From an uncultured Pseudomonadota bacterium (lineage in GTDB: Bacteria > Pseudomonadota > Alphaproteobacteria > Rs-D84): a DNA stretch of 64,000 nucleotides. Every line of letters begins with the position of its first letter. Within the stretch, counting starts at the first letter, position 1. Positions 19,230 through 48,912 of the stretch are shown piece by piece. The stretch is from positions 1 through 64,000 of the forward strand of contig CADBDF010000002.1 of assembly GCA_902793435.1 (NCBI GenBank), in the 5' to 3' direction. The translations under genes were made by a program, and so were the position numbers. The notes below the pieces were generated by a model, which did not search any database, was not told the DNA's origin, and saw only the letters and a list, made by a program, of their open reading frames with translations.

Positions 19230-20726
19230 ATGTTCAAACGAAATTTTTTGGTAAAAATGTTATCTGTGTTGGCGGTTGCGTCAATTACATCGTTTGCTGG
19301 TATTGGTGTATCATACGCGGCGGGCGATGAGGTTGATGAAAATGCTGGGACGGGTTCAACCGAAACACCGACTGGCAATGACCCTGTGGGTGCGGCGACA
19401 GGCATAAAGATTGCAACAAAATCTTTTAATGATGCGCGTTTTTCGTATGTGCGTCGTGATTTAGATAATACAATTGCAACGATTCGTGATGTTGTATCCA
19501 ATGCAATAACAAATACAAACAATATTGCCGCGTTGCAATCTGGTAAGCAAACACGTCCTGACGATAACCATGCATGCCCAGCGGGTAAAACATGTTTGTT
19601 GGTGACAGATACATCAGGCATACGCAATTGGTATGAAATTATTGATTGTAATGAAAGTGCTTTCTTGGCCAATGTTGGTTCGGATTACGGGTTTGGAAAT
19701 AGTGGGTATTATGGTGGGTACACAAATGGTTCGACGGGATATCGTGCGTGTACGGAATCCAATGCAAATTGTGGTGAAAATCAATGGATGCGTTCTTTTG
19801 CAAATGGTGTCGTGTATGGTGAGGCGCGTGCGGTTCAAATATCAAATTCAGAGGGGACAATTGTGACTTTGCCACAAAATGTACAGTCGGGTAATGTTTG
19901 TGTGTGCCGTGCGACGGGGTATCGTGTCAAAAATGGTGATACATATGGTGCATTGCAACCGATTTATACGGATGCTTGGGTTGTTTATCGTAATCATGCA
20001 AATACAGACCAGGCATGTTTGCATAATTGTGCATTTGATGGTGATTCACAAAGTGGTAGTGGTATAGATGTGCCATATTATGCATCTATTTCAAATACAT
20101 GTGTTGGTGGTGGTGCGTCTGTGGCAAATATGTGCACAATTGATCCATGGTTTGCAAGTATTGTGACAACAAATCCGCAAACGGCTGTGATTGGTTATGA
20201 TGGAAATAATGGTGATTGGAATACGGGTATTTGTGGTACTGCAGCCCAGGGTTCGGCGGATTATTTGTGGTGTAAAAATAGTAATGCGGCGAATTCAACG
20301 GTAGAAACGTCTTGGTGTTGGGATGATGGTTCATGTGCGCCAAATTCTTGGATTGTTAATTATTCAGATGTAAATGCGTCTTTGACAGGTGGTGCGAATA
20401 ATCCAAAGTTGTATGGTCGTGCATATTGTACAGATATGGATACAACAAATGTTGCCTCTGGTACGTTGTTGAATGGTACAGAAATAGGAAATAAGATTTT
20501 GCAGGGTTATGATAATGATGGATTGGCATGTGTTTGTCAGGTACAAAAATATAAAAATGCTGCGGCTACGACTATGACAGATGTGCAAAATCCAAAGTAC
20601 ATATATACAGGTATAACTGATGTTAAGTGTCATGAATTCTGTCAATCTTTGTGCGTGAATTATTTCAAAGATAACGCAGATAACAGTTTGTTGCGTGATT
20701 TAGCAGGAACATGTCCGTTGGATTAA
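19230..20726 (+). CDS. Secreted Cys-rich surface protein with CPAGKxCLLV module
   Basis: 498 aa, signal peptide ending SFAGIGVSYA. Residues about 59-135 (IKIATKSFNDARFSY, NTIATIRDVVSN, ACPAGKTCLLVTDTSG, NWYEI) closely match the C-terminal end of the 654-aa protein at 46948-48912. After this module come about 360 residues rich in Gly, Asn, Thr and Cys (CVCRATGYRV, CLHNCAFDG, CHEFCQSLCVNYF), implying many disulfides. No family is recognised; an exported adhesin-like role is inferred. A GNRA-loop terminator follows. Confidence 0.65.
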   Translation: MFKRNFLVKMLSVLAVASITSFAGIGVSYAAGDEVDENAGTGSTETPTGNDPVGAATGIKIATKSFNDARFSYVRRDLDNTIATIRDVVSNAITNTNNIAALQSGKQTRPDDNHACPAGKTCLLVTDTSGIRNWYEIIDCNESAFLANVGSDYGFGNSGYYGGYTNGSTGYRACTESNANCGENQWMRSFANGVVYGEARAVQISNSEGTIVTLPQNVQSGNVCVCRATGYRVKNGDTYGALQPIYTDAWVVYRNHANTDQACLHNCAFDGDSQSGSGIDVPYYASISNTCVGGGASVANMCTIDPWFASIVTTNPQTAVIGYDGNNGDWNTGICGTAAQGSADYLWCKNSNAANSTVETSWCWDDGSCAPNSWIVNYSDVNASLTGGANNPKLYGRAYCTDMDTTNVASGTLLNGTEIGNKILQGYDNDGLACVCQVQKYKNAAATTMTDVQNPKYIYTGITDVKCHEFCQSLCVNYFKDNADNSLLRDLAGTCPLD

Positions 20727-22437: not shown

Positions 22438-22800
22438 ATGAAAAATTATACAAAAGTTTTAGTGTTTGCTGCGATTGTGGCTTTGGTTATTGTTCCTGCG
22501 CATGCGGCGGGTACGGATAACAGTGCGTTGTGTTCGTTGGTTGGCAAAATGCAGGGTGTTTTTAAAACATTGCGTATTTTGGCATTTGTTGGTGCTGGAT
22601 TTTATATGGCCGAATGGGCATGGGGTTGGATTTCCAAAGGCGAAGTTAAAATGGACGATGTAAAAAAGAAAGGAACCGGTTTGCTGGTTGGATTTAGTTT
22701 GTTGTTCTTAATCGGTGTGGTTTTGTCTTTCTTGATGTCTGCGGCCAGTGATGGTGGTTCGTTTGGTTGTAAAGAAATCACAACGGGTTGGGGCAAATAA
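22438..22800 (+). CDS. VirB2/TrbC-like small membrane protein
   Basis: 120 aa. A cleavable signal peptide (ending VPAHAAG) is followed by two membrane helices, VFKTLRILAFVGAGFYMAEWAWGWI split by a short basic loop from GLLVGFSLLFLIGVVLSFLM, with Cys residues near both ends. Size and layout match VirB2/TrbC pilin subunits of type IV secretion. No other vir/trb genes are in the window, so the role is uncertain. AAGGAGAT ribosome-binding site. Confidence 0.6.
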   Translation: MKNYTKVLVFAAIVALVIVPAHAAGTDNSALCSLVGKMQGVFKTLRILAFVGAGFYMAEWAWGWISKGEVKMDDVKKKGTGLLVGFSLLFLIGVVLSFLMSAASDGGSFGCKEITTGWGK

Positions 22801-29057: not shown

Positions 29058-31826
29058 ATGAAAAAAAGAAATGGATTTTGTTTAACCTTTTTAACAAGCA
29101 TCGCATGTATGTTGGTGTATTCATCATCTGCGTTTTCGGCGGTTCGTATTTTGGGGTCTGGGGGAAATACAATGGTGGGGGCATCTGGTGCATCGACAGA
29201 ATTAAAAAGCCCAACAGCCACAACAACAACGGCGGTGTCGCAATCAACACGTGGGTCGTCGTTGCGATTTTCTAATCCAACCCAGGTTGCGTCGGCAACA
29301 TCATCACAAAGTTATTCAGGATTGTCCAGTGCCGGTGGAACATCGTCTGGGGTTGCGGATTCTGCATCTTCGCGTTTGTCTATTGGTAAATATTTGAATT
29401 TGTCTCATTCAACAAAGCCAACACCAACAGGCGGTGGAACATCTGGGGGTGGAACTTCAAATGTCGATTTGGATAATTTGCAAAATCAAATTGACAGATT
29501 GCAAACTTCTGTTGATGGATTAAAGGTTAATAAACAAAATGCGTTGATTGTTGGCGATGGTGAATACATCGATATTTCTGGGGACGATAATAATGTAATT
29601 TCTATTGATATAAATGCTTTGAAACATGATTTGCAAGATGCATTGGGAACACAAAAAGATTTGCTGACGGAAATAGACGAAGATTATAAATTGTGGTGGT
29701 GTTATGCCAATAATACAGGTGATGGTTGTGTTGATGAAAAACAGTTAATTGTTGATTTGGGAACTGTTTTAAAAGAATATGATTTGGCAAATGAAAATGT
29801 TTCATTGAGTGAGGCTTTGGTGGGCAAGCAAGGAAAATTAACCACAACTGATGCGGGATATATTGCAATCGATCAAGAGACCGGCACTATTGATGTGAAA
29901 TTTCAAAAGTTAAAAGATGATTTGGGTATATCCAATGCAAAACAATCGGAAATTCAATTTACCCAAGATGGTAAATTGCAATGGCGCTATACGGACGATT
30001 TTGAACAAGACGGTGTGACGAAAAAATGGACAACCGCTGATATCGATGCATTGATGCGCAGAAATCTGGACGGATATGTTCAGTTGGCAATACTGGAAGA
30101 TTATGTCAAGAAAAGCGAATTGGCGGGATTGCAAGGCAATTTAGAGGCCGCAAGTGATAAATATATCGAAATTGTAGATAATAAAATTGGTGTTAAATTT
30201 GCTGAATTAAAAAATGCTTTGAATATTCCGCAAGAGCGCGAAGTTGAAATTGATTTTACAGATGATGGTAAAATAAAATGGCGTTATGTTGGGGATACGG
30301 CATGGCATCAAACAAATCAAAAAGTGAGTGATTTTGTTGATTTAACCGGATATGTGTTGCGTTCGGAATTGGCAGGATTACATGGGGCTTTGACGGCCGA
30401 TGAAAATGGGTATTTGCAAATTAATAATAATAAAATTGGTATAAAGTTCCAAGATTTGAAAAATGCTTTGGAAATTCCAGATGCCCAACGCGATATCGAA
30501 ATGGAAATCACAGATGGTGGTTTGTTGCGCTGGCGGTATTTGGATTCTTTTGAAATTGATGGCACAACAAAAAAGTGGGTTAATGTATCAAACAATATTA
30601 ATACTTTGATAGATAATAAATTGGCCAACTATGTGACAGAAACGGTTTTCCAAAATACATTAAATGATTATCAAAAAACTTTATCTGCGGACGCGGGTGG
30701 TTTTATCACAATCAATAATGATGTGATTGGATTAAAATTACAAGATTTGAAAAACGCACTAAATATTCCAGATGCGGCAGAAAAAATCGAAATGGAAATT
30801 ACCGATGCTGGTAAATTGCGCTGGCGGTATTTAAATGAATTTGAACCAGACGGCACAACAAAAAAATGGACAGATGTTTCGGTAAATATCGGTGATTTGA
30901 TTGATGGTAAATTGGAAAATTATGTTGATAATACATCTTTGACCACGACATTAAATGATTATGTGACGAATAGTGCGTTATCGACACAACTGCAAGACTA
31001 TGCGTTGAAAACATATGTTGATACAGAATTGGCTAAAAAACAGGTTAAATTGACCGAGTCCCCAGACGGATTTATTGCCATTACATCTGTTGATGGTGGT
31101 GGTGAAGAAATCGGTATCAAATTTGATGAATTGAAAAATGCTCTGGGTATCGATAGTTTGAAAACGGCGGAAATTCGCGTTGATAATGGTGTTTTGCAAT
31201 GGCGTTATATGAACGAGTTTGAAACAGATGCGGAAACCGGTGCGGCAACAGATGTAAAAAAATGGACGACTGTTTATGATTTGAAATCTTTGCTGGACGG
31301 ATATGTGACAGAATCTGCGTTGGCAACGGTTGTTGAACGTATCGACAGGGATTTGGCTGGCAAACAAATAAAACTGACCCCGGCCGAAGAAGGTTATATC
31401 ATATTAAATGAACAAACTGGTGAAATTGCTGTTGATATGGCTGGGTTGCGTTCGTATTTGTCTATGGAAGGCGATAGTTCCAGAACAAGTGAAATGCGTG
31501 TGTTTGATGGAAAATTACAATGGCGGTATTTGGACGAATTCGAAACCGAGGCCAATGGTAATCGTGTCCAGGTATGGCATACTTTGGATTTGTCCGCTGT
31601 TGAATTACCGTTATATGTTAAAAAGGCTTATTTGACAGATAATTACTATAACAAGGTTTATATAGATAATTTGGCACGAACCATTGAAAATAATATCAAT
31701 GCCAGTTTGGCGAATATATGGCCAGATGAAGGTTTATATTTATTGAGTGTCAGTGGCAGTGGTGATAATAAAACACCTGTGTGGCAATCTGTGAAGATTG
31801 TTGATGGTGATGGTGTTGTGCATTAA
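29058..31826 (+). CDS. Large secreted repeat protein, seven about 100-residue units
   Basis: 922 aa with a signal peptide (LTSIACMLVYSSSAFS) and a Ser/Thr/Gly-rich linker to about residue 130. A coiled coil follows (VDLDNLQNQIDRLQTSVDGL), then seven diverged units. Each unit runs KQxxLTxxxxGYIxI, (I/V)GIKFxxLKNAL, then an acidic strand ending xLxWRYxxEFExDGTTKKW, then YV-x-(S/T)-xL coiled-coil-like linkers (SALSTQLQDYALKTYVDTEL). The end, LYLLSVSGSG...PVWQSVKI, resembles the end module of other secreted proteins here. It looks like a fibrous surface adhesin, in part reminiscent of phage tail-fibre linkers. No family name can be given. Confidence 0.7.
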   Translation: MKKRNGFCLTFLTSIACMLVYSSSAFSAVRILGSGGNTMVGASGASTELKSPTATTTTAVSQSTRGSSLRFSNPTQVASATSSQSYSGLSSAGGTSSGVADSASSRLSIGKYLNLSHSTKPTPTGGGTSGGGTSNVDLDNLQNQIDRLQTSVDGLKVNKQNALIVGDGEYIDISGDDNNVISIDINALKHDLQDALGTQKDLLTEIDEDYKLWWCYANNTGDGCVDEKQLIVDLGTVLKEYDLANENVSLSEALVGKQGKLTTTDAGYIAIDQETGTIDVKFQKLKDDLGISNAKQSEIQFTQDGKLQWRYTDDFEQDGVTKKWTTADIDALMRRNLDGYVQLAILEDYVKKSELAGLQGNLEAASDKYIEIVDNKIGVKFAELKNALNIPQEREVEIDFTDDGKIKWRYVGDTAWHQTNQKVSDFVDLTGYVLRSELAGLHGALTADENGYLQINNNKIGIKFQDLKNALEIPDAQRDIEMEITDGGLLRWRYLDSFEIDGTTKKWVNVSNNINTLIDNKLANYVTETVFQNTLNDYQKTLSADAGGFITINNDVIGLKLQDLKNALNIPDAAEKIEMEITDAGKLRWRYLNEFEPDGTTKKWTDVSVNIGDLIDGKLENYVDNTSLTTTLNDYVTNSALSTQLQDYALKTYVDTELAKKQVKLTESPDGFIAITSVDGGGEEIGIKFDELKNALGIDSLKTAEIRVDNGVLQWRYMNEFETDAETGAATDVKKWTTVYDLKSLLDGYVTESALATVVERIDRDLAGKQIKLTPAEEGYIILNEQTGEIAVDMAGLRSYLSMEGDSSRTSEMRVFDGKLQWRYLDEFETEANGNRVQVWHTLDLSAVELPLYVKKAYLTDNYYNKVYIDNLARTIENNINASLANIWPDEGLYLLSVSGSGDNKTPVWQSVKIVDGDGVVH

Positions 31827-34992: not shown

Positions 34993-35949
34993 TTACGAAG
35001 CCGGTAATGCGGTCACGCCGTCGGTTTCGATTAAATTCGTCCATTTATAATAAACGGTTGAACCGATTTTATAATATGTCAGCACGCAAGGTGATGCCGC
35101 GGTGCATGTTGCGTTGGTGCTGGCACTATTGACATCTTTGAGGGTACCGTTCATTTTTGAATAGGCGATGTCGGCAGAAGTGCTGATGTCGTCATTAGTA
35201 ATGCTAAGGTCAGTGATTTGTGCGGAACCAACAGCGTCTAACGTTGCCAAGTCGCCTAAATCGGCAGTGTTAGCCTTTAAACCGTCCTTGTAATCAATAT
35301 AACTTTTAACATCGGTTATGGTGTTTGCAACCTGTTTTGGTGTTGCGGTTTTTGTTGTTGATGCACCGTCACCAGATGATGCCACAGTCAAAGTATGGGC
35401 ACTGGAATCATATGTTGCGGATTTTGTGTCTGTGGTCGCAGGAACAGTTGGTATGTTAATTGCCTTAACACGTGCTTCGACCGCGGCAACGGTTGGAACA
35501 TAACTATCACCATCTGCTTTTACTGTGGTATTTGTTGTGAATACGGCAGAGTTAGCGGCAATGTTGGTAACATCAACGTTGGCTGTCTTTGTGTTTGTAC
35601 TGGCTGTGTTGCCGGAATATAAAACAGAACCTTGGACTGCGCTGACAGACGGTGCTTTATCTGTAGCGGCAGTGAGTGACAAAGCAGTGGTACCGTCAGA
35701 GATGTAATTTGATGCACTGGGAGCTGCGTTTTGGATAGCGTTATAAACCGTTTGTTCAGATGGAACGGTTGTTGTGCTGGTTGTGGATAATGTTCCGGTA
35801 TTTAATGCAGATGAGTTAAGTTTTGTGCCGACCTTGGCATCGACGTATGCCTGTGATGCGATGACCGTTGCGGTGTCAGCCCAGGCAGCATCCATTGTCA
35901 CCAATACAGATGCCAATATGCCAGCAATGGCAATATGATTTCGTTTCAT
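34993..35949 (-). CDS. Secreted surface protein, paralogue 1
   Basis: 318 aa with a signal peptide (MKRNHIAIAGILASVLVTMDAAWA). The mature N-terminus DTATVIASQAYVDAKVGTKLN is nearly the same as in the next gene. A long Thr/Ser/Ala/Val-rich middle follows, with PTVAAVEARVKAI. The end (CTAASPCVLTYYKIGSTVYYKWTNL) carries a Cys pair, a strand and a Trp, a module seen in four other secreted proteins here. The start at 35949 follows AAGGAAAGGG; the longer frame to 36024 lacks a signal peptide at its start. Two promoters with a shared 15-bp site lie upstream. Function unknown; adhesin-like by composition. Confidence 0.65.
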   Translation of the reverse strand: MKRNHIAIAGILASVLVTMDAAWADTATVIASQAYVDAKVGTKLNSSALNTGTLSTTSTTTVPSEQTVYNAIQNAAPSASNYISDGTTALSLTAATDKAPSVSAVQGSVLYSGNTASTNTKTANVDVTNIAANSAVFTTNTTVKADGDSYVPTVAAVEARVKAINIPTVPATTDTKSATYDSSAHTLTVASSGDGASTTKTATPKQVANTITDVKSYIDYKDGLKANTADLGDLATLDAVGSAQITDLSITNDDISTSADIAYSKMNGTLKDVNSASTNATCTAASPCVLTYYKIGSTVYYKWTNLIETDGVTALPAS

Positions 35950-36035
35950 TTCCCTTTCCTTCGTTTGTGTGTGTATGAAATATGTGGGTGGATATTTTGC
36001 CCGGTAAATAGCCCCCCAAAACATATCTTAATTTT

Positions 36036-36283: not shown

Positions 36284-37822
36284 TTACATAACCGCGTTTG
36301 TGCTTTCGGTATCCATATTTGTCCATTCATAGACAGGGTTGCCGTTGTCCATAAACATTGTTAATGTGCATGGACTGCCCTGGACACATGCTGCAGAACC
36401 ATCACCGCCCTGGGTATTGATGTTGGACAGGTTGTATTTCAAACCTTGTGCATAGGATATTGTTCCACGAACCGGGGCAACCGCACCGTTGTTTTGATTA
36501 ACCGCGACGACAGGTTGGTTTGTTGCGGTGTCGGTGCTGGTCAAAGCGGTAAGACCAGATGCAGCGGTTGTCTTGACCTCTTTGATGGCAGCGGCCAGGG
36601 TTGTTGAGGTTAATCCAGAGTCTCCGGGTGTAAATGTTGCGCTTTCTGCCTCGGCTTGGATTTTTTGTGAAACGGAACCTTGTGTATTTGCACCACTATT
36701 TAATGTTGTGATATTTGCTGCGTTTGTCGCAATATCGTCGGCATTTGTTTTTGCACGTGTGTCCAATGCAACTAAATTTGCACCGACACCTTGTCCGGCG
36801 GTAATGTAATTACCATTTGATGCCACATATGAATCGCTTTTTGTTTGATATGTGTCTGCTGCGCTATTGCCGGCTGTTTGGATAGCCGTGTTGATTGCGG
36901 ATTGTACACGTTTTTCGACCGCGGCAACAGTTGGAACATAATTATCTGGTGTTGCGTTTGCATTGGTTTCTGTGTTTGTGGTGGCATTATACAAGTTTGT
37001 TGCGTTGGTAGTCTCTGCCGCGGTACTGTCAAACCCTTCGTTCCATGCTTTGGTTAAACTACCTTGTCTTGCGACGGTTGAATGGATTGATGCCACCTTG
37101 GCTAAACTGTCGGCTGCACTTAAACCGTTGCTGTCCAAAGTGTTGTCTGCAAATGCATTATTAACAGCGGTACTGGCATTGCCGATTGCTGTGGCAACGG
37201 CACCAGATGTCACCAGGTTATCTGCGTTTGCGCCCACTGTTGTATCAATGCCGGTGTATGTCACGTCTCCGGCTGTGTTGGTTGCGGTGACAACTTTGCC
37301 AGCAGTGCTGACACCATCTACGGTTCCGCCCAAATTGCCTTGTTTGGCGTCTAATGCACCACGAACGGCGGTTTCGGTTGCCAATTTTTCATTGCTGGTT
37401 GAACCTGTTGCGTTAATTGATGTTGCTATTGCACTGTCTGCGATACCCGCGGTGGTAATTGTGCCAACCGATGCTGCTACTTGACCGTTATCTTGGGATA
37501 CACTGACGATTGGTTTTCCACTTTCTGATACTGCACTTAAATCCAATCCGTTGATTGTGCCAGTAAGGTCCAAAGTGCCCTTTGTGACGGTGACTGTGCC
37601 TTGACCGTCTGCGGTGATTCCTGTGATAACATTACCGTTAGCATCGCCAGCCAATACGATGTTTCCACCGTCGCCACTTTTTAATAAATTTTGTTTCAAT
37701 GCGTCTTTGGCATCAACATATGCCTGTGATGCGATGACGGTTGTGGTATCTGCGCGTGCGGTTCCCGCAACACCCATGATTGCAGCCATTACACCAAAGA
37801 AGGCCAGGTTTTTAATTTTCAT
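36284..37822 (-). CDS. Secreted surface protein, paralogue 2
   Basis: 512 aa with a signal peptide (MKIKNLAFFGVMAAIMGVAGTARA). Its mature start DTTTVIASQAYVDAKDALKQN matches paralogue 1. The body is rich in Thr, Ala, Asn and Val with several short coiled-coil-like motifs (VRGALDAKQGNLGG, VPTVAAVEKRVQSAI, DTRAKTNADDIATNAANITTL split by Gly-rich parts). The end CVQGSPCTLTMFMDNGNPVYEWTNM is the same Cys-pair and Trp module. The start at 37822 lies after GGGAAAC; the frame extends to 37927 without a signal. Its promoter is a near-consensus one bearing the shared 15-bp site. Confidence 0.65.
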   Translation of the reverse strand: MKIKNLAFFGVMAAIMGVAGTARADTTTVIASQAYVDAKDALKQNLLKSGDGGNIVLAGDANGNVITGITADGQGTVTVTKGTLDLTGTINGLDLSAVSESGKPIVSVSQDNGQVAASVGTITTAGIADSAIATSINATGSTSNEKLATETAVRGALDAKQGNLGGTVDGVSTAGKVVTATNTAGDVTYTGIDTTVGANADNLVTSGAVATAIGNASTAVNNAFADNTLDSNGLSAADSLAKVASIHSTVARQGSLTKAWNEGFDSTAAETTNATNLYNATTNTETNANATPDNYVPTVAAVEKRVQSAINTAIQTAGNSAADTYQTKSDSYVASNGNYITAGQGVGANLVALDTRAKTNADDIATNAANITTLNSGANTQGSVSQKIQAEAESATFTPGDSGLTSTTLAAAIKEVKTTAASGLTALTSTDTATNQPVVAVNQNNGAVAPVRGTISYAQGLKYNLSNINTQGGDGSAACVQGSPCTLTMFMDNGNPVYEWTNMDTESTNAVM

Positions 37823-37898
37823 GTTAGTTTCCCTTTTTTTTCGTTTGTTTGTTTGTTTGTTTGTTGTGGGGAAAGTATCCCCCACACCTGTTACACAT

Positions 37899-37927
37899 AT
37901 TATACCACATTTTTTGTATATACGCAA
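37899..37927 (-). promoter_or_regulatory. Promoter of paralogue 2 with 15-bp shared site
   Basis: Minus strand: TTGCGT (complement of 37922-37927), exact 17-bp spacer, TATAAT (complement of 37899-37904). The upstream part is the same TTGCGTATATACAAA seen twice before paralogue 1. Confidence 0.7.
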
Positions 37928-41533: not shown

Positions 41534-42535
41534 ATGGCACATCAATTTTTCTTTAATCCGTATATTTTGGATAATCTGCCGGCACCAGAGACGGGATTTG
41601 ATGTTGTTCAAGATATTTCAGAACCTTTGTTGCGTATGTATGTGACATCGCGTGGTGTAAAGACTTTCTTTGTTCGCAAACGCGTTCATGGTCGCGATAA
41701 AAGAATTATTATTGGTTCGTATCCTGATATGGATATTGAAACCGCACGCAGTCAAGTCGCAACAGTTTTATTAGATGCAAAAAAGACAATTCCTGTGCGC
41801 AGAAAAAAATTATCTTTCCACGAATTTTGGGATATTTATTTGAAAAATCAGGTGCGCAGAAGTGAAGATTCTGAAACAAAATTGGTACGTGCGGTGAATA
41901 TGCATTTGAATTCTCTGTTTGATAAAAATATATGTGATATCACGCGCGCAGATATTGAAAATGTTATTAAAAAAATCGAAGGCAAAGCCATTGCTGCACG
42001 TATGCAAGAAGTTTTAAATAGTGTGTTTAAGTATGCGATAGAGCAAGGGTATGTAAAAGAAAATCCTGTGGCGGAAATTAGTAAAATTGTTCAAAAACGG
42101 CGCGTTAGTCCTTTGACTGATGAATCTGTGGTGCGATTGTTAGATGTGATAAAATCACAAGAAAATGAATCTATGCGTGATGCGTTTTTGATGCTGATTT
42201 ATTCGTTTTTATCAAAGCAAAAAGTTTTTACTATGCGCTGGGAAGAATTGGATTTTAATCATTATTTGTGGCGCGATTGGCCTTTGCCAGATGTGGCGGT
42301 TGTGTTGTTGGAAAATATGCCTCAATATGGCGAGTGGGTTTTTATGGGACGTTGCCGGACACATTTGGCGGACCCCAGAACCGCATGGCATAATGTTGCA
42401 AATGCCGCTGGTATGCCGGATTTGCGCATGGACGATGTCCATAAATTCTTTATGCGACGGTTGGTTTGGGCGGCAGACAAGGAAGATTTGCGTGTGAATA
42501 TGAATTCTTTGTTGGAAAAATTTGGCATACAATAA
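41534..42535 (+). CDS. Tyrosine-recombinase-like protein without catalytic residues
   Basis: 333 aa. N-terminal arm-binding-like domain (LLRMYVTSRGVKTFFVRKRVHGRDKRIIIGSYP, given in part), a SAM-like core (SFHEFWDIYLKNQVRR...LNSVFKYAIEQGYVKENPV) and a catalytic-domain remnant (YSFLSKQKVFTMRWEELDF). By hand alignment the box I Arg (TGLRRGE) is replaced by Ser227, box II H-x-x-R is reduced to H303 with Phe at the Arg position, and no Tyr follows. It is therefore probably not a recombinase but may bind DNA. AAAGGGGG ribosome-binding site. Co-transcribed with lepA. Confidence 0.75.
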   Translation: MAHQFFFNPYILDNLPAPETGFDVVQDISEPLLRMYVTSRGVKTFFVRKRVHGRDKRIIIGSYPDMDIETARSQVATVLLDAKKTIPVRRKKLSFHEFWDIYLKNQVRRSEDSETKLVRAVNMHLNSLFDKNICDITRADIENVIKKIEGKAIAARMQEVLNSVFKYAIEQGYVKENPVAEISKIVQKRRVSPLTDESVVRLLDVIKSQENESMRDAFLMLIYSFLSKQKVFTMRWEELDFNHYLWRDWPLPDVAVVLLENMPQYGEWVFMGRCRTHLADPRTAWHNVANAAGMPDLRMDDVHKFFMRRLVWAADKEDLRVNMNSLLEKFGIQ

Positions 42536-46734: not shown

Positions 46735-46880
46735 GTTGCTTGACCCGGTCTAAAAAAAAACTAGGTTTAAAAGCAACAACTTTTTTCAAAAATTTTAAAA
46801 TTCACTTTTTTTGTAAAAACAATGCGTTATTCAAAATCGCAATTCGCCAGATGTGGTGTCGAAAAAAACCTAGGTTTTTT
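46735..46880. promoter_or_regulatory. Palindromes upstream of the mosaic surface protein
   Basis: A perfect 18-bp palindrome AAAAAACCTAGGTTTTTT lies near 46863-46880 and a related AACTAGGTTT near 46760. The latter sits inside an imperfect inverted repeat with arms GTTGCTT and AAAGCAAC. CTAG is otherwise rare, so these may be operator sites for the 46948 gene. A rearranged phage remnant is an alternative. Confidence 0.4.
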
Positions 46881-46947
46881 GTATATTTATTATATAGCGA
46901 AAAAGCGCGGATTTCTGCCTGTTTATAAAATCGAGAGAGTTGCGAAA

Positions 46948-48912
46948 ATGTCTATAAAATGTGCATTTTTTAGTGTTTTACAAAAAATCATGGTATTTTG
47001 CTGTGCCATGTTTTTTGGATTTGCCGACGCATTTTCCGCAAATTTGCCAAGCGGATATACAGAGTTGGAATATATTGAATCCACCGGTACGCAGTATATT
47101 GATACAGGGATAAAACAGCAAGATGGTGATGAGTTTGGATTAATATATCAACAAGTCACATTGGATACTTCTTATCGTAGTTTGTTTGGGGCGGCTGCTT
47201 CTGGTACTAACAAGACGTTCTATATATCACAAACATCAAGCGCAACTTTTGTTGGTAATGTTTTAAACCCTAATATTCCTCGTAATACAAACAAGCATAC
47301 ATTATCTTGGGCAACGACTTCGTCTTCGTCCCAAAATGTAGTTGTTGATGGGCAAACTTATGATATATCAGTTCAAATTACACCAAACCCCGACTTAAAT
47401 GTTATGGTATTTGCAAGAAATGCTGGTCAGGATAAAATGATTGGTAAAGTTTATGGGTATTATCAAAAACGCAATGGCGAGTATCTAATAAATTTTGTTC
47501 CGGCAAAACAAGGAAACACTGTTGGTATGTATGACCTTGTTTCTGGACAATTCTTTACGAACCAAGGTACTGGTACATTTACCGCGGGTCCGGTGGTGGT
47601 GACAAATTCGGGTCCGATATCGTCGGTGACTGTGGCGGGTTTGGTCGCACAAAACGGAACCCCAACACCAACAACCCCGATTGACATTGTGAGTAATAAC
47701 GGGGTGTTGAAATATGGTGCAATAGGAAAGAATTTGTTTGATAAGGAACAAACATACATTTCTGCGTTTGTTAACGCTAATACAGGTGAGCTTACTGCTG
47801 CTTCAACAAGTCAGAGAAGTTTTGTAGTTGGTTGCTTGCCAAATACTACATATACTTTATCGGGTATGACAGCAGCTAGTGGCTGGGGGTCATTTACATC
47901 ATCAACTATAGGCACAACTGCCACCAGTTTTACAAAAGGTAATGGAACTATAACAACAGGAGCAAATGATAAATACTTAATCGGTTTGGCATATGTAGAA
48001 GGTAGTAGTATATATGATTACAGAAATACATTGCAAATAGAACGTGGCTCAACCGCTACACCATACGAACCATATCAAGAGGGTATCTACACCGATGGCG
48101 AGGTTGAAACCATTGGCGATAGTGCGAATCATACCGCAACGGTGGCGACTTTGTTGGGTGTGGGCGATTATCGTGATACACAAAATATCAACACTGGCGC
48201 AATCACCCGCAATGTCGGGGTCAAGGTATTTGATGGAACGGAAGATTGGGCAATTCATACTTCTGGTGCTATGAAAATAAATGTTTCACACCCGTTGAAT
48301 ATACAAACGATATATGGCATCTGCACTCATTTTGAGGGAGTTCCTGCAAGTGTCACCGCTGCAAATATGACAATTGGTCAATTCAAGTTGGCAAACACTA
48401 CAAACGAAATGTTCTTTAAGACAAGTTATGACAACACAACAAGTTGGAAGAACTGGCTTGCCGAACAATACGCAAACGGCACACCTGTAATCGTAATATA
48501 CCCATTGGCGACGGAAACAACGGAATCTGTTGCGGGACAAACCATGACCACCGCACCTGTCGATAATCGCACAGGTGGTGTGACCGGTATGACCATTACA
48601 ACATTGTTGTCGTCGGGCGCCAGTGTTGTCACAACAATCGCTGCAAACGCAATCAAAATTGCGACGACCGCATACAATGCGGCGCGGTTCAGTCCGGTCG
48701 TAAATGATTTAAACAGTACGGTGGCGACCATACGCGATATCGTGACGAATACGATAAATCAAACCGCCGCAATCGCCAGTTTGCAAGCGGACAAGCAGAC
48801 CCGCCCGGAAGACGCTTGTCCAGCTGGCAAAAAATGTTTATTGGTTGAAACCGAAGAAAATGGTGTTATTGTCCCGCACTGGTTCCCGATTATAGAAACA
48901 CCCGAAGAATAA
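46948..48912 (+). CDS. Mosaic secreted surface protein with phage-like domains
   Basis: 654 aa. A signal peptide ends FGFADAFSA. Residues about 10-160 after it (LPSGYTELEYIESTGTQYID, LVSGQFFTNQGTGTFTAG) resemble LamG/concanavalin-like domains common in gut surface and prophage proteins. The middle (IERGSTATPYEPYQEG, GVKVFDGTEDWAIHTSG, NWLAEQYANGTPVIVIYPL) resembles phage structural or carbohydrate-contact modules. The last 100 residues (NAIKIATTAYNAARFSPVV, ATIRDIVTNTINQTAAIASL, DACPAGKKCLLVETEENG, PHWFPII) are a close relative of the module in the 19230 protein. ATG 46948 gives a signal peptide; the frame is open to 46822. Probably acquired in part from a phage. Confidence 0.7.
   Translation: MSIKCAFFSVLQKIMVFCCAMFFGFADAFSANLPSGYTELEYIESTGTQYIDTGIKQQDGDEFGLIYQQVTLDTSYRSLFGAAASGTNKTFYISQTSSATFVGNVLNPNIPRNTNKHTLSWATTSSSSQNVVVDGQTYDISVQITPNPDLNVMVFARNAGQDKMIGKVYGYYQKRNGEYLINFVPAKQGNTVGMYDLVSGQFFTNQGTGTFTAGPVVVTNSGPISSVTVAGLVAQNGTPTPTTPIDIVSNNGVLKYGAIGKNLFDKEQTYISAFVNANTGELTAASTSQRSFVVGCLPNTTYTLSGMTAASGWGSFTSSTIGTTATSFTKGNGTITTGANDKYLIGLAYVEGSSIYDYRNTLQIERGSTATPYEPYQEGIYTDGEVETIGDSANHTATVATLLGVGDYRDTQNINTGAITRNVGVKVFDGTEDWAIHTSGAMKINVSHPLNIQTIYGICTHFEGVPASVTAANMTIGQFKLANTTNEMFFKTSYDNTTSWKNWLAEQYANGTPVIVIYPLATETTESVAGQTMTTAPVDNRTGGVTGMTITTLLSSGASVVTTIAANAIKIATTAYNAARFSPVVNDLNSTVATIRDIVTNTINQTAAIASLQADKQTRPEDACPAGKKCLLVETEENGVIVPHWFPIIETPEE

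Follow-up and report, generated by a model that had tools for sequence, protein, structure and literature searches.

Two genes for secreted proteins, P0001 and P0002, are found in the window, i.e., the whole stretch of 64,000 nucleotides that was analyzed (G000:C2:1-64000), which have in common a module of approximately 80 residues, made up of a helix and the motifs KQTRP, CPxGKxCLLV, and PHWYxI. A further pair of secreted proteins, P0003 and P0004, terminates in a cysteine motif of a different type. The features of these loci are compiled in Table 1. The genome G000 has 898,232 bases in 15 contigs and is 97.8% complete. All genomes compared are metagenome-assembled genomes (MAGs), and the family loci derive from Candidatus Enterousia and alphaproteobacterial MAGs of rumen, goat gut, and horse gut origin. 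Enterousia is a member of the Alphaproteobacteria, and its genomes are reported to be reduced in size, to about 0.75-1.0 Mb (PMC12306168); surface proteins, adhesins, and retroelements are not mentioned in that genome paper.

Table 1. Coordinates of the features at the P0001, P0003/P0004, and P0002 loci (positions in the window).
Feature	Position	Strand	Remarks
P0001, 498 aa	19230..20726	+	Signal peptide, short linker, module, two divergent copies of a Cys-rich domain as in retroelement targets
P0001 module, internal copy	19404..19646	+	Profile E=1e-39
P0001 Cys-rich region	19647..20723	+	Aligns with retroelement-target domains (VYG..., CxC, WVV/WVF, CxxxC)
P0003, secreted protein	34993..36024	-	C-terminal motif C-x5-C-x-L-T ... 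Y-x-W-T, differs from module
P0004, P0003 paralogue	36284..37927	-	Same type of C-terminal motif
Outer palindrome before P0002, AAAACTAGGTTT (one mismatch)	46757..46768	.	Sequence
97-bp segment before P0002	46769..46865	.	Common orientation: 0.99 identical to reference segment, 0.49 reversed
Inner palindrome before P0002, AAACCTAGGTTT	46866..46877	.	Sole exact copy in window
Fixed -10-like hexamer TATATT	46882..46887	+	4 bp past inner palindrome
P0002	46948..48912	+	Likely ATG at 46948 in a frame open from 46822; signal peptide, then LamG-like and phage-tail-like heads, C-terminal module
P0002 LamG/concanavalin-like head	47047..47589	+	Model residues 10-190, pLDDT mostly 75-96
P0002 second head, phage-tail-like	48142..48528	+	Model residues 375-503, pLDDT about 90
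P0002 module	48652..48894	+	Predicted helix (model residues 550-592) and beta hairpin (606-623)

The first-pass annotation had proposed that at least five secreted proteins of the window are linked by a shared, mostly cysteine-containing end module. The motif strings quoted in its support are all present in the sequence as given. The strict Cys motif occurs in P0001, P0002, P0003, and P0004, with a shuffled-sequence expectation of 0.076 for P0001 and of about 0 for the other three, and is missing from P0005 (29058) and P0006 (18603). Homology, however, could be shown for only two of the six genes named, namely those at 19230 and 46948, for which the suggested relationship was confirmed over an 81-amino acid stretch (62% identity, E=1e-22, search with the 19230 stretch). 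P0003, P0004, P0005, and P0006 were matched neither by this 81-amino acid search at E<=10 nor by a 13-row profile at E<=0.001. The ends of the proteins at 29058 and 18603, in which the strict motif is absent, also failed to align at the claimed places and were rejected as relatives of the module. In profile-profile comparison, the motif of P0003 and P0004 comes into register with the module only at E=0.03-0.1, and their N-terminal IASxAYVDAK segment meets the module family at E=0.025; the two proteins perhaps constitute a separate, distantly related family. The pair is present in four of 59 genomes of the genus, all of which contain the module, and absent from the 55 others, which are all module-less.

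A search with the 81-amino acid stretch of P0001 located the module at 26 places in the approximately 0.9-Mb genome G000, corresponding to about 22 genes. Out of 201 genomes examined from the order, 11 (G000 and ten others) were matched by the module profile; they all belong to one genus and contain between 2 and 27 copies each. The expectation that a profile search of this genome and its relatives would recover further members was, thus, amply borne out. Matches to the module were absent from the Pfam, PHROGs, and NCBIfam libraries. Invariant columns in 67 copies are I1, A4, F13, L20, V31, I35, I41, L44-Q45, KQTRP, CP, CLLV, and G; PHW is conserved at 97-98%, followed by either Y or F. The hydrophobic columns in the first half of the module show a period peak of 3.5 residues, i.e., a coiled-coil-like heptad spacing, and two separate models, which are shallow and weak overall (mean pLDDT 47 and 64), predict a single long helix and, after it, a beta hairpin that spans CLLV...PHWY. 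From these predictions, the stem would probably fold into a coiled-coil, oligomeric stalk with a small disulfide-closed hairpin joining head to head or head to partner. Within-genome means of copy similarity range from 0.79 to 0.89, compared to 0.55-0.67 for other lineages, close pairs excepted. Since copies of one genome are generally more alike than those of different lineages, the family would have been expanded or homogenized separately in each lineage.

The module is combined with a variety of heads. Among approximately 50 members in relatives, LamG-like, phage-tail-like, or other domains stand before the module, which is itself either located C-terminally or followed by a second LamG-like or a Cys-rich domain. 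The designation as an end module cannot be maintained, since in about half of the members, and in the same genomes, the module is internal and followed by 130-350 residues. In G000 genes containing both, the LamG heads are on average 36% identical, as opposed to 85% for the modules. Blocks of near-identical DNA cover the 5' leader together with the signal peptide, and the module, and often end at the module boundaries. The proposed domain shuffling with a reused module in a lineage-specific secreted family is, thus, supported by both profile search and architectures. The best-modelled head, that of P0002, was recognized by Foldseek as a LamG/pentraxin beta-sandwich (pentraxins, neurexin, and laminin LG domains; E about 1e-5). 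It also matches phage LamG-type proteins with E down to 1e-15, and no Pfam family reaches its cut-off on it. INPHARED matches to P0002 fall outside the module, and the single IMG/VR match to the module is a piece of an Enterousia genome containing a phage-derived cluster (contig L120). An Rfam search of five loci spanning the shared 5' leaders returned only a tRNA.

About half of the module genes of G000 are located behind a 97-bp segment between two palindromes. Such AAACCTAGGTTT pairs are found upstream of many module genes, with the sites 108-109 bp apart (119 bp in G022). G000 contains 30 exact AAACCTAGGTTT sites versus one for the reversed control pattern; among sixteen other genomes, 64 were counted in G022, 13 in G111, three in G106, and none or one in each of the remainder. 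Palindrome pairs are numerous only in G000, G022, and G111 among the module-bearing genomes tested; in UBA3635, RUG13375, and RUG13827, mostly no palindrome or inverted-repeat pair was found upstream of the module genes. Each of 34 segments was oriented relative to its own gene, and orientations were compared among paralogues in the assemblies. A common orientation was found for 31 of the 34, whose reversed identity is at most 0.63. The remaining three are reversed: after reverse complementation of a paralogous segment, identity is 0.94-0.96, as opposed to at most 0.62 in forward direction. They are distributed as one per genome, i.e., 1 of 12 readable segments in G000, 1 of 6 in G111, and 1 of 16 in G022. 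Comparison of G000 with G111 yielded no clean case of the same locus in opposite orientation. The sole same-locus candidate is L148 (G111:C5:41000-44500) with L034; the two flanks of the L148 pair correspond to flanks located upstream of two separate loci in G000, owing to either recombination between distant loci or misassembly.

A -10-like hexamer is located 4 bp past the inner site in all 34 cases. In G022, flipping clearly completes a promoter, TTGTCA-18-TATACT, while the common orientation offers TCGCAA. In G000, the -35 match is 4/6 as assembled and 3/6 flipped, and both G000 and G111 leave the ON orientation ambiguous. From these sequence comparisons, the segments would flip in living cells, and one orientation, in G022 probably the flipped one, would be ON.

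A candidate enzyme for this inversion is a serine recombinase of the resolvase/invertase family, composed of a catalytic domain and an HTH, which is encoded immediately next to a palindrome pair in G000 (C9:36.4-37.0 kb), G111, G028, and G060. In G028 and G060, no exact site other than the one beside the recombinase is present in the genome. In the module-less genome G055, the recombinase adjoins a pair with an asymmetric core, AAACCAAGGTTT / TAACCTTGGTTT, and this asymmetry identifies the pair as a true inverted repeat. The recombinase would, judging from this arrangement, be cognate to the palindrome pairs. The gene on the opposite side in G000, G028, G055, and G060 has features of a YadA-type adhesin, and a Pfam check on the G000 protein returned YadA_anchor with E=9e-10. 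In G000:C9, this adhesin gene (L136:1103-2551) is divergent from the invertase gene with the palindrome pair between them; in G111, a different secreted protein occupies its position. The arrangement suggests an old invertase-adhesin switch, the sites of which would later have spread to the module genes in one lineage.

The second variation system is a diversity-generating retroelement. In G000, a reverse transcriptase of 345 amino acids (RVT_1, E=3e-12) is encoded at C9:3044-4081 near the repeats. The template region is located near C9:1575-1715, and the variable repeat is present in four copies in the genome; a retroelement reverse transcriptase is found in five of the 11 module genomes (G000, G022, G106, G109, and G111). 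In the best 70-bp windows, all differences between template and variable repeats are at template adenines (G000, 10/10; G111, 14/14; G106, 12/12 and 16/16; G022, 14/14). The Avd-like accessory protein of 126 amino acids beside the G000 reverse transcriptase matches 23S_rRNA_IVP with E=2e-27; bAvd is reached at only 0.004, below the cut-off. Full-length targets in G111, G106, and G022 carry the module beside the variable domain, and the G106 target has a variable domain on each side of the module. The fourth variable repeat of G000 (C2:129.6 kb) lies within a different, module-less protein. Two G000 targets with the order LamG, module, and variable domain (L029:17172-19020 on C3 and L030:14566-16600 on C5) are located behind palindrome pairs; in the assembly, both show a frameshift within the module, which decay, switching, or an assembly error would explain.

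Similar variable domains are found in retroelements of module-less Enterousia genomes, and the variable repeats of five of these loci (L097, L099, L102, L104, and L108) share the scaffold WVF..C...C...C...V. This occurrence suggests a variable head that is genus-wide, for which the module serves as the stem in a single lineage. The variable domain has no match in Pfam or PDB, and the target has none among INPHARED phages; in a low-confidence AlphaFold model of the target, a helix is predicted in the variable region at a pLDDT of about 50. According to published surveys, the C-type lectin fold is near-universal for retroelement targets (PMC8144416). The Cys-rich domain is a candidate non-lectin variable domain. 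P0001, which is not preceded by a palindrome pair, contains such Cys-rich domains. Since its protein sequence aligns with the targets across both the module and the Cys-rich region and the DNA of the latter does not match the template region, it is regarded as a relative rather than a current target of the retroelement.

Taken together, the module is likely to be the constant stem of lineage-specific exported display proteins that make up a phase-variable, hypermutable surface repertoire. According to this model, the signal peptides would direct the proteins to Sec export, followed by display on the cell surface. Since neither a lipobox nor an anchor nor a barrel was identified in the module proteins, and PF03895 (YadA anchor) did not match those scanned, the surface location is deduced from the signal peptides. 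The stem would present one or two interchangeable heads, before and/or after the module. The invertase would flip the promoter segment and, thereby, move a -35 element up to the fixed -10 hexamer, turning the gene ON or OFF, so that only a few module genes would be ON per cell. The retroelement would rewrite the Cys-rich head. As an outcome, three processes, namely head shuffling, phase variation, and targeted hypermutation, would diversify the surface repertoire. A stricter version is conceivable, albeit doubtful, in which dozens of identical promoter segments are flipped by a single serine invertase, leaving roughly one stem protein per cell in the ON state, while a different head class borne by the same stem is hypermutated by the retroelement on a Cys-rich scaffold that is maybe not a C-type lectin; that display would be nearly exclusive is suggested by the proportion of reversed segments in the three genomes.

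Several other explanations have to be weighed against the display model. The CCTAGG palindromes could serve a transcription factor as operators, and the reversed segments could be old, fixed rearrangements, with no active switch being involved. The symmetry of the sites, their tightly held spacing, and the small minority of reversed segments would be compatible with this view. Against a pure operator role, which is rather unlikely, stand the 94-96% identity that the reversed segments still have with their paralogues, their independent presence in each of three genomes, and the link between the sites and a serine invertase, beside which the G055 pair is a true inverted repeat. The first-pass annotation had considered an anchoring, sorting, or assembly tag, and a tag for anchoring, sorting, or secretion by a dedicated processing enzyme would be in line with the invariant short motifs KQTRP, CPxGKxCLLV, and PHWYxI and with the C-terminal location in about half of the members. 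Against it stands the free alternation between internal and terminal location within one genome. Moreover, the search for a co-occurring anchoring enzyme was negative for the sortase type, PF04203 being absent from 10/10 genomes with positive controls, and a tag is considered unlikely. What co-occurs with the module instead is diversification machinery, namely the retroelement and the invertible-promoter segments with the serine invertase.

That the module is conserved chiefly at the DNA level, as a cassette for gene conversion by which heads stay exchangeable, and is devoid of a specific protein function, would agree with the conserved DNA at 5' leader and module bracketing the variable heads, as well as with the closer similarity of within-genome copies. 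This is considered quite improbable, because KQTRP, CP, CLLV, and W are invariant at about 50% divergence between lineages, which points to protein-level selection on the module. Finally, the family could be part of a domesticated phage particle, such as tail fibers, instead of the cell surface, given that heads resemble phage tail domains and that one module gene adjoins the phage-derived head-tail cluster of the IMG/VR contig. Yet the proteins carry Sec-type signal peptides, the module genes are dispersed over most contigs, and the cluster is also present in the module-less genomes G020, G033, and G162; a particle component is, thus, very improbable.

The display model combines traits of several known systems. 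In Bacteroides fragilis, one invertase acts on the promoters of many surface genes, including capsule and SusC/SusD loci (PMC11868660 and general knowledge). Both systems share many dispersed promoters bracketed by the same repeat and an invertase gene in the genome, the cognate relationship being a proposal in the present case. Unlike in B. fragilis, the host is a 0.9-Mb alphaproteobacterium, the 12-bp core is fully palindromic, inversion is read from sequence comparison, and the genes constitute one shuffled constant-stem family, some members of which are additionally targeted by the retroelement. With the surface-display retroelements of Legionella and Treponema there is agreement in the reverse transcriptase, the template and variable repeats, the adenine-only substitution, the C-terminal location of the variable repeat in an exported protein, and, in G000, an accessory four-helix-type protein beside the reverse transcriptase. 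They differ in that the variable stretch here is Cys-rich (WVF..C...C...C...VR) with no match to a known domain, and that the target bears the stem module, in one relative with variable domains on both sides. Trimeric autotransporter adhesins of the YadA type are likewise exported and consist of stalk and heads, as is predicted for the coiled-coil stem, and a YadA-anchor protein is encoded beside the invertase and palindrome pair; in contrast to them, the module proteins are devoid of the YadA anchor domain and their stem can be internal. The main head resembles LamG, pentraxin, and CBM40-like lectin domains in predicted fold, although it does not meet a Pfam cut-off. An account of the combined module, inversion, and retroelement system was not found in the open-licence PMC literature.

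Reduced-genome gut bacteria are usually characterized by losses. Here, a few percent of a 0.9-Mb genome are given to one display family and two unrelated variation machines, and such an investment would imply that phages, the immunity of the host, or attachment to partner cells that change exert a strong pressure. The system would offer a compact natural case of head shuffling, ON/OFF switching, and targeted mutation on one scaffold, and its Cys-rich head is a candidate retroelement target outside the C-type lectin fold. Many of the MAG contigs terminate at modules or palindromes, which could reflect the repeats, real heterogeneity, or both.

Some further observations were made in the window and in its genome. 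The phage-derived cluster of G000:C5:3759-15588 (L031), also seen on IMG/VR contig L120, encodes an endolysin, a scaffold-like protein, a major head protein, two tail proteins, a terminase in two pieces, and a portal-like protein; cellular genes, among them that of a DnaB-like helicase, are interspersed. Its tail protein was detected in 14/14 Enterousia genomes tested, with 46-99% identity. The cluster looks like a domesticated, vertically kept podovirus and is possibly a gene-transfer-agent-like element. In the window, P0005 (29058-31826) is a secreted protein of 922 amino acids with repeated tail-fiber-like units (GYI.I..., KLRWRYLDEFE..KKW) and a weak PHROG tail match. An integrase-like protein (41534-42535) contains arm-binding and central domains, with no match to the catalytic tyrosine-recombinase domain, and is possibly degenerate or repurposed. 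At 22438-22800, a small secreted membrane protein is encoded which, by appearance only, is a putative VirB2/TrbC-type pilin.
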